Source of the DNA: Alphaproteobacteria bacterium
Lineage (GTDB): Bacteria > Pseudomonadota > Alphaproteobacteria > Micavibrionales > UBA2020
Length of the DNA stretch: 64,000 bases
Direction of reading: 5' to 3'
Assembly: GCA_016794125.1 (NCBI GenBank)
Contig: JAEUKT010000002.1
Coordinates: 186,001-250,000 of the forward strand
Program-made: the position numbers and the translations under genes
Notes under the pieces: generated by a model
Seen by the model: only the letters and a program-made list of their open reading frames with translations
Told to the model about the DNA's origin: nothing
Database searches by the model: none
In this document: piece by piece, positions 62,698 to 64,000 of the stretch
Layout: the number at the start of each line of letters is the position of its first letter
Numbering within the stretch: position 1 is the stretch's first letter

Positions 62698-63435
62698 ATG
62701 TTCAGTCTTGCAGGCAAAAAAGCCCTCGTCACCGGCGCATCGGGCGGCATCGGCGGCGCAATCGCCAAAGCCCTGCGCGCACAAGGCGCGGAAGTGGGGC
62801 TGAGCGGCCGTAATGTGGAAGCCCTCAATAAACTCGCAGCCGAAATCGGCGCGGGCACGCATGTGCTGCCGGGTGACCTGAACACGGCGGAAGCCGCCGA
62901 CGCGCTGATCAAATCCGCCGAAGAAAAAATGGGACAGGTGGATATCCTTGTGAACAATGCCGGCCTGACGAAAGACGGCCTGTTTATGCGCATGAAGGAT
63001 GAAGACTGGCAGGTGGTGCAGGACGTGAACCTGACCGCCCCCTTCCGCCTGATCCGTGCAGCGATCAAGGGCATGATGAAACGCCGCGCGGGCCGCATCA
63101 TCAACATCACCTCGGTCGTGGGCGTGACGGGCAACCCCGGACAGGCGAATTACTGCGCATCGAAGGCCGGCATGATCGGCATGAGCAAATCCATGGCGGC
63201 CGAAGTCGCCAGCCGTGGCATCACGGTGAATTGCATCGCCCCCGGTTTCATCGCAACCGCCATGACCGAAGCGCTGAACGACGACCAGAAAGCCAAAATC
63301 AACGCGACCATCCCCGCAGGCGCAATGGGCACATCCGAAGACATCGCGGCATCCGTCGTCTACCTCGCAAGCGACGAAGCGAAATACGTGACCGGCCAGA
63401 CGCTGCATGTGAATGGCGGGATGGCGATGATTTGA
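62698..63435 (+). CDS. fabG: 3-oxoacyl-ACP reductase
   Basis: A 245-residue short-chain dehydrogenase reducing 3-ketoacyl-ACP. NADPH motif GASGGIGG (13-20), NNAG, and the catalytic Ser139, Tyr152 and Lys156 are all present. GGGAG precedes the ATG. acpP, which normally follows, is not next; the Abi-like gene is there instead. Confidence 0.97.
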   Translation: MFSLAGKKALVTGASGGIGGAIAKALRAQGAEVGLSGRNVEALNKLAAEIGAGTHVLPGDLNTAEAADALIKSAEEKMGQVDILVNNAGLTKDGLFMRMKDEDWQVVQDVNLTAPFRLIRAAIKGMMKRRAGRIINITSVVGVTGNPGQANYCASKAGMIGMSKSMAAEVASRGITVNCIAPGFIATAMTEALNDDQKAKINATIPAGAMGTSEDIAASVVYLASDEAKYVTGQTLHVNGGMAMI

Positions 63436-63453
63436 TGGACAGACAAAAATAAA

Positions 63454-63530
63454 AAGCTCTAAAAAAGCTTGACCCCGGTAGTGTGCTTGCGCAGGGACAT
63501 CCGGGGCCGTACTATTCCAATATAGCAGAT
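63454..63530 (+). ncRNA. Candidate AbiF-associated structured RNA
   Basis: Between fabG and the Abi-like gene, several short stems can form: aagct/agctt (63454-63458, 63466-63470), ccccgg/ccgggg (63473-63478, 63501-63506) enclosing tgtg/cgca, and ctat/atag (63512-63525). A conserved structured RNA next to abiF genes is described (abiF RNA); I recall this from memory and have not compared the sequence. Ends are approximate. Confidence 0.45.
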
Positions 63531-63561
63531 TAGAAAAAAAATTCAACTATTTTTAAATAAG

Positions 63562-64000
63562 ATGTTCGAATATAGTCCTGAAATTATTGAAAAACTGATA
63601 AAATCTCTGTCTCTAGACAGATTGTCAACTTATGGGGCAGGCTCGACTGGATGTAGTCGAGAAGCTCTTGAATTGTACATTTGGAATACTCAAGCTAGCG
63701 CAGCTTTTTATGTCCCTTTACAGGGATTAGAGGTTACGCTTCGAAATGCCCTACACCGTGAACTAGCAAAAAAATTCGGCACCGCAAATTGGTATGACAC
63801 TTTTGGCTTAGAACGGCAGGGCCGCGAGAAGGTTCAAAAAGCTAAAGAGTCCGTCTATGCAGTCCATCGCAAGGTTGCTGCACCGCATGTTGTTGCTGAA
63901 CTCTCATTTGGTTTCTGGCAGTCTCTTTTGAGTAAACGTTATTACCAATCACTTTGGGTACCCGCATTGCACAAAGCATTTCCCAATGCTAAACGAAAAC
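63562..64000 (+). CDS. Abi-like (AbiF/AbiD, Abi_2) protein, 5' part
   Basis: The first 146 residues of an open frame cut by the window edge. It resembles Abi_2-family abortive-infection proteins: EALELYIWNTQASAAFYVPL, GLEVTLRNALHRELAKKFG, WYDTFGL and VAELSFGFWQSLLSKRYY are the N-terminal family blocks. The family's C-terminal HEPN-type RNase motif lies beyond the window. GC content and codon use (many AT-ending codons) differ from all neighbours, which suggests recent acquisition. A candidate structured RNA precedes it; the ribosome-binding site is weak. Confidence 0.85.
   Translation, partial: MFEYSPEIIEKLIKSLSLDRLSTYGAGSTGCSREALELYIWNTQASAAFYVPLQGLEVTLRNALHRELAKKFGTANWYDTFGLERQGREKVQKAKESVYAVHRKVAAPHVVAELSFGFWQSLLSKRYYQSLWVPALHKAFPNAKRK

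Follow-up and report, generated by a model that had tools for sequence, protein, structure and literature searches.

A putative RNA antitoxin gene encoded opposite a PD-T4-5/Abi_2-type HEPN toxin gene at the fabG-acpP junction of a Micavibrionales bacterium

The DNA considered here is a stretch of 64,000 nucleotides (the window) from an alphaproteobacterium of the Micavibrionales (UBA2020; assembly GCA_016794125.1, contig JAEUKT010000002.1, positions 186,001 to 250,000 of the forward strand), at the right end of which a predicted HEPN toxin gene of the PD-T4-5/Abi_2 type and a small predicted non-coding RNA (ncRNA) adjoin each other downstream of fabG. The fabG open reading frame (ORF) occupies 62698-63435 on the plus strand, is 88-99% identical to its orthologues in the genus, and the insertion begins, on its left side, at the fabG stop codon. 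The toxin ORF, recognised also by profiles and fold, starts with an ATG at 63562 on the plus strand, runs to the window's end at 64000 and terminates beyond it at window coordinate 64206 (G000:C2:250206), encoding 214 amino acids. Its frame contains EALELYIWNTQ, LRNALHRELA and ELSFGFWQSLLSKRY, and the AT-richer frame with Abi_2 blocks reported by a first-pass annotation of the letters is real, with a local GC content of ~0.42 across the toxin compared with 0.56-0.65 in the core genes on either side. The same annotation had proposed an insertion where acpP is expected; fabG and acpP are ~1.96 kb apart, and between them lie the toxin gene, a 119-residue minus-strand ORF that matched no family and a minus-strand gene of the UPF0114/TIGR00645 family, after which acpP and fabF follow.

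The toxin is matched by the PADLOC PD-T4-5 profile, which carries no curated cut-off, at 1.1e-22 over residues 12-185, by the AbiD profile at 3e-6 and, marginally, by Pfam Abi_2 (PF07751; 25.7 bits against a gathering cut-off of 25.6). The PD-T4-5 profile matches 8/8 of the aligned homologues and Abi_2 matches 7/8 relatives at E<=0.001. Past position 64000, where a C-terminal HEPN motif had been expected, the protein carries R-N-R-I-A-H-H-E-P, in which R161-N-R-I-A-H166 (~64042-64059) conforms to the HEPN pattern R-phi-x-x-x-H. R161 and H166 are invariant in an alignment of eight toxin sequences (A1), and R161, N162, R163, A165, H166, H167, P169 and I170 are kept in homologues of 32-51% identity. 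The AlphaFold2 model obtained from this alignment is all-helical (pLDDT 90.3) and its sole convincing fold match in the PDB is 8VZ6, the PbAbiF dimer with bound ncRNA (TMq 0.68, VIA Z 12.6 over 202 residues), the second-best being the HEPN domain of yeast Swt1 (Z 6.5). The tie to AbiF, the presumed source group of Cas13, rests on this fold, because a PDB sequence search with A1 gave no match and hhalign against the AbiF of Clostridioides difficile phage phiC2 was weak (probability 7%, E 0.005, 62 columns). On profiles and modelled structure, the gene product is assigned as a PD-T4-5/Abi_2-type HEPN protein with an AbiF fold; of the named protein families PD-T4-5, not AbiF, comes closest.

In the non-coding stretch between fabG and the toxin gene, the first-pass annotation had described several small stems, including ccccgg/ccgggg, as a candidate associated RNA. 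The plus strand of 63436-63561 folded alone is unremarkable (z -1.08, not beyond chance), whereas the ccccgg/ccgggg stem is conserved and the minus-strand stretch 63514-63446 folds with z -3.47. The conserved hairpin core lies at 63471-63507 on the minus strand; inward of the outer stem (63473-63478 paired with 63501-63506) come another short helix and then an inner stem. Upstream of toxin homologues this hairpin is found again with altered letters: the window has CCCCGG/CCGGGG, locus L006 (protein 51% identical) has CCCCAG/CTGGGG and locus L008 (47% identical) has CCCTGG/CCAGGG. In 18 hairpins aligned without reference to structure, three helices with 13 pairs are formed, 93.9% of the cells are paired and two-sided changes occur at 8 pairs, against 2.3+-1.2 in shuffled alignments (0/500) and 0-1 in slid controls. 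When phylum, plasmid and viral copies are included, 55 distinct hairpins show two-sided changes at 12/13 pairs, with 45 such cells against 8.4 in shuffles, in an alignment that is biased towards the model since it was fitted to it, which is not the case for the set of 18.

The covariance model built from these hairpins (R1) scores 41.1 bits in the window, where it occurs once, as it does in the whole source genome. Over 385 alphaproteobacterial genomes it gives 27 matches in 17 genomes, 18 of them upstream of a toxin homologue and all in identical orientation relative to the toxin, 2 just downstream of one and 7 with no homologue nearby. A 28.7-bit match in genome G340 (L101), with no adjoining toxin, was set aside as probably due to chance. 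The hairpin is kept beside toxin homologues in both Alpha- and Gammaproteobacteria and copies of one RNA type group together on the toxin tree; the sub-type of the window, with a UAGU...GGGACAU internal loop, is common to L006 and L008, which carry the nearest toxins (98% support). A blastn search of the window's intergenic region against plasmids returned nothing meaningful. Comparison with the homologues, covariation and the minus-strand fold together make it almost certain that a conserved structured RNA exists beside the toxin, as had been proposed.

The strand of this RNA can be read from its non-Watson-Crick cells. Read on the toxin strand the helices contain 36 A.C against 5 G.U cells, hence 36 G.U against 5 A.C on the minus strand, and the outer stem alone, read on the plus strand, has 10 A.C and 0 G.U; these cells are not phylogenetically independent, which counts against taking the totals at face value, and by eye they reduce to ~20 A.C versus ~4 G.U events. 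Such an excess of G.U on the minus strand is expected if the RNA is encoded there. On the same strand, a sigma70-like promoter precedes the hairpin in the window, with a -35 box TTGAAT (63541-63546), a 16-nt spacer and a -10 box TATATT (63519-63524) preceded by TG, as in extended -10 promoters. A second, independent scanner finds the same promoter, which taken singly is not significant because 0.8 such sites are expected in a shuffled 300-bp stretch; its weight derives from its fixed place across relatives. Over 46 bacterial loci the best promoter scores average 8.54/12 on the minus strand but 5.96 on the plus strand, where dinucleotide shuffles give 6.17+-0.14; a score of at least 9/12 is reached on the minus strand in 26/46 loci versus 1.2 in shuffles and 2 on the plus strand. 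The gap from the -10 box to the hairpin is 11-12 nt in 39/46 loci and the spacer 16-18 nt in 43/46, with examples such as TTGACA-18-TATAAT in L008 and TTGACA-17-TATGTT in L017. Past the hairpin, a T-run of at least 4 within 24 nt is found on the minus strand in 35/46 loci and on the plus strand in 1/46; in the window the U-rich 3' end or terminator is AAGCUUUUUUAGAGCUUUUUAUUUUUG (63445-63466, minus strand). The predicted transcript would span 63446-63512, starting at ~63512 and ending at ~63446, with a length of ~67 nt. The wobble cells, the promoter and the T-run are three independent and concordant signs, and make it very probable that the RNA is transcribed from the strand opposite the toxin.

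An early idea, implied also by the first-pass annotation, was that the RNA forms the plus-strand leader of the toxin messenger RNA (mRNA), and it was abandoned in view of the wobble count and the promoter scan. In its fuller form, modelled on the RCd22-abiF pair of C. difficile, a hairpin in that leader would serve both as a cis attenuator and as an antitoxin; this would suit the position of the hairpin just upstream of the toxin ORF, the close and co-oriented arrangement of a helix-turn-helix gene, hairpin and toxin in some plasmid loci, and the plus-strand loop asymmetry, which resembles RF03085. The G.U/A.C asymmetry, the promoter and the U-run all indicate the minus strand, however, and make this arrangement improbable. 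Less probable still is a role of the inverted repeat as an operator in the DNA, or as no more than an intrinsic terminator, devoid of RNA function. A GC-rich palindrome does adjoin a minus-strand U-run, and helix-turn-helix genes lie upstream in several plasmid loci, but a strand-specific wobble pattern is unexpected for a DNA site, and the conserved asymmetric internal loops, the three covarying helices and the promoter at fixed distance directly ahead of the hairpin point to a short transcript rather than to a site.

The minus-strand RNA is not the abiF RNA of Rfam (RF03085), for which an Infernal search had been proposed. This model gave no match even at E<=10 over 63000-64000, Rfam at gathering thresholds found no abiF in the whole window, and Rfam searches of the toxin-homologue loci gave only rRNA, tRNA and chance matches; the abiF RNA of phage phiC2, used as a positive control, was found with the same tool at 37.6 bits. 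A SAM_alpha match in the window scans was dismissed as chance, and a search of 96 genomes of the class with RF03085 was silent, as were its controls, and is thus uninformative. R1 is an RNA family missing from Rfam and distinct from RF03085, and the earlier suggestion of a divergent form of the abiF system agrees with a related toxin fold accompanied by a conserved RNA outside that family.

Two characterised AbiF systems suggest how such a pair could work: RCd22 neutralises the C. difficile AbiF (AbiFCd) through direct binding (PMC12373285), and each PbAbiF binds one AbiFr in the complex, which has been reviewed (PMC12737573). By analogy with these, and on the sequence and structural evidence above, the locus probably encodes a two-part defence module of an RNA antitoxin and a HEPN RNase toxin, related to AbiF-AbiFr, type-III-like and with a divergently oriented antitoxin gene. 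The 214-residue protein would dimerise, cut single-stranded RNA through R161/H166 and halt growth, while the ncRNA, made from its own sigma70-like promoter (63519-63546) and ending in the U-run before fabG, would form a hairpin of three helices and inhibit the toxin by binding to it; neutralisation by binding is considered likely on the same precedents. Since the promoters are divergent, expression of antitoxin and toxin would be set separately. Upon phage infection, the loss of host transcription or RNA could deplete the ncRNA and free the toxin, by extension from type III systems and AbiF, a defence function being attributed to the module by family.

In an alternative type-I-like mechanism, the divergent RNA would pair with the 5' leader present on a toxin mRNA that begins further upstream, for instance through read-through from fabG, and block translation or trigger decay, with no binding to the protein. 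A toxin transcript entering from fabG would indeed carry a perfect complement of the ncRNA, but selection keeps the intramolecular fold and fixed loop letters while the stem letters change, transcription of the predicted RNA begins ahead of the toxin ORF and proceeds in the direction away from that frame, copies of the RNA lacking a toxin occur elsewhere in genomes, and both characterised AbiF RNAs act on protein (PMC12373285, PMC12737573); pairing with the mRNA is for these reasons regarded as unlikely.

Some observations weigh against an RNA antitoxin that acts by binding an AbiF-like toxin from the opposite strand. The similarity in protein sequence between the toxin and phiC2 AbiF is barely detectable; the geometry of the hairpin is unlike that of Rfam abiF, its long internal loop lying on the 5' side (minus strand) instead of the 3' side; and in several homologues (L024, L026 and L020) only 14-18 nt separate the hairpin from the ATG assigned to the toxin, so that the RNA promoter overlaps the start of the coding sequence.

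The putative module shares with AbiF-AbiFr and AbiFCd-RCd22 (PDB 8VZ6) a HEPN toxin of the same fold and an adjoining small structured RNA, a compact hairpin with an asymmetric internal loop. In contrast to RCd22, which is co-transcribed ahead of its toxin (PMC12373285), the RNA is here assigned to the strand opposite the toxin and to a promoter of its own; the window has one hairpin copy where RCd22 has two, and the protein has 214 residues where phiC2 AbiF has 287, with hardly any sequence identity between them. PD-T4-5, to whose sequence family the toxin belongs by its profile match, is described, in the portion of the source drawn on here, as carried on a plasmid, distantly related to AbiF/D and conferring abortive-type defence, and is presented there as a single gene with no RNA partner mentioned (PMC9519451). 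With the type III systems ToxIN, CptIN and TenpIN the locus would have in common an RNA antitoxin adjoining an endoribonuclease toxin, while their toxin fold is different. The type III RNA consists of tandem repeats that precede the toxin and share its transcript by read-through of a terminator (PMC12373285); here the evidence places the RNA opposite the toxin rather than ahead of it on one strand, and R1 is present as a single copy, although a relative (L031) has an array with ~200-bp spacing. No earlier report of divergent RNAs of AbiF/PD-T4-5 genes was found in the literature, the coverage of which was thin for subscription papers and for the primary work on AbiF and Cas13.

Cas13 is thought to derive from the AbiF group (PMC12165695, PMC12373285), and HEPN toxins of this presumed root are of interest for the route from antitoxin RNA to guide RNA. 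An RNA gene driven from a separate promoter and uncoupled from transcription of the toxin would differ in arrangement from the one characterised AbiF leader, and its layout would be nearer to a separately expressed guide. An overlooked RNA partner is also suggested for PD-T4-5, treated so far as a one-gene defence, and this bears on how such genes are expressed, tested and annotated; the R1 model could be a practical finder for RNA-toxin modules.

The comparison of fabG-acpP junctions among relatives, proposed with the first-pass annotation, gave junctions free of the toxin and congeners with other cargo. The toxin is absent from all 17 other genomes of the family that were searched, five of them congeneric, and two genomes with a 99% identical FabG do not have it. 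In other genera the orthologous fabG runs straight to acpP or with little between, while the congeners carry genes with a LIDYENV motif (NYN-like), an ankyrin-type gene and a small membrane protein at the junction. Because relatives within the genus lack it at this junction, the toxin would either have been gained recently by horizontal transfer or have undergone multiple losses, at a site whose content varies; the patchy distribution agrees with the horizontal gain proposed earlier, and repeated loss fits it as well. Variability of the junction within the genus is seen in L189-L192 and L203-L206.

Beyond the R1 loci, 42 toxin homologues without an R1 match have a promoter score of at least 10 on the minus strand in 11 cases and on the plus strand in 0, and a perfect TTGACA beside the toxin start in 12 versus 0. 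A second hairpin type is common among them; its MAFFT alignment (A5) gave three consensus pairs only, so that what is claimed for this type is limited to its promoter and terminator. In L207, a PD-T4-5 member from an Escherichia coli plasmid, a strong minus-strand promoter (TTGACA-17-TATAGT) overlaps the toxin start and is followed ~60 nt further by a terminator, in a stretch where no RNA is annotated, and the single-sequence fold of the predicted transcript is unremarkable (z -1.03). These loci, with the arrays and toxin-less copies described below, raise the tentative possibility of a large proteobacterial AbiF/PD-T4-5 branch whose RNA antitoxins are divergently transcribed and fall into two or more hairpin types outside Rfam, and, perhaps, of phage decoys.

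The number and setting of R1 copies vary. L031 (G229:C68, 919-2631) contains ~200-bp tandem units, each with an R1 hairpin and a promoter, three ahead of the toxin gene and two behind it, and L008 has a hairpin on both sides of the toxin (1745-1785 and 2585-2625), each with its own consensus promoter. Toxin-less copies occur on bacterial chromosomes and plasmids in L095 (between a priA-like gene and atpH), L105 (by an IS1595-like transposase), L182 (Nocardia), L107, L109, L096, L094 and L185. In L180 and L181 the toxin is truncated or broken and the RNA intact, and in many plasmid loci (L177-L180, L183, L187 and L207) the RNA and toxin are immediately preceded by a helix-turn-helix gene of ~160-175 amino acids, oriented like the toxin. 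Viral contigs carry toxin-less R1-like hairpins at L120:698-737, L134:2041-2078, L165:3871-3908, L175:6914-6953, L129:8354-8394, L130:7056-7095, L154:797-835, L169:2115-2153, L141:8480-8516 and L155:715-751, which may be RNA decoys against the defence. In several of them the stems are rebuilt on both sides (UCGUGG/CCACGA, CCGUGG/CCACGG, CCCAGG/CCUGGG) and the loop is kept, the search pattern having included the loop and not the stems.
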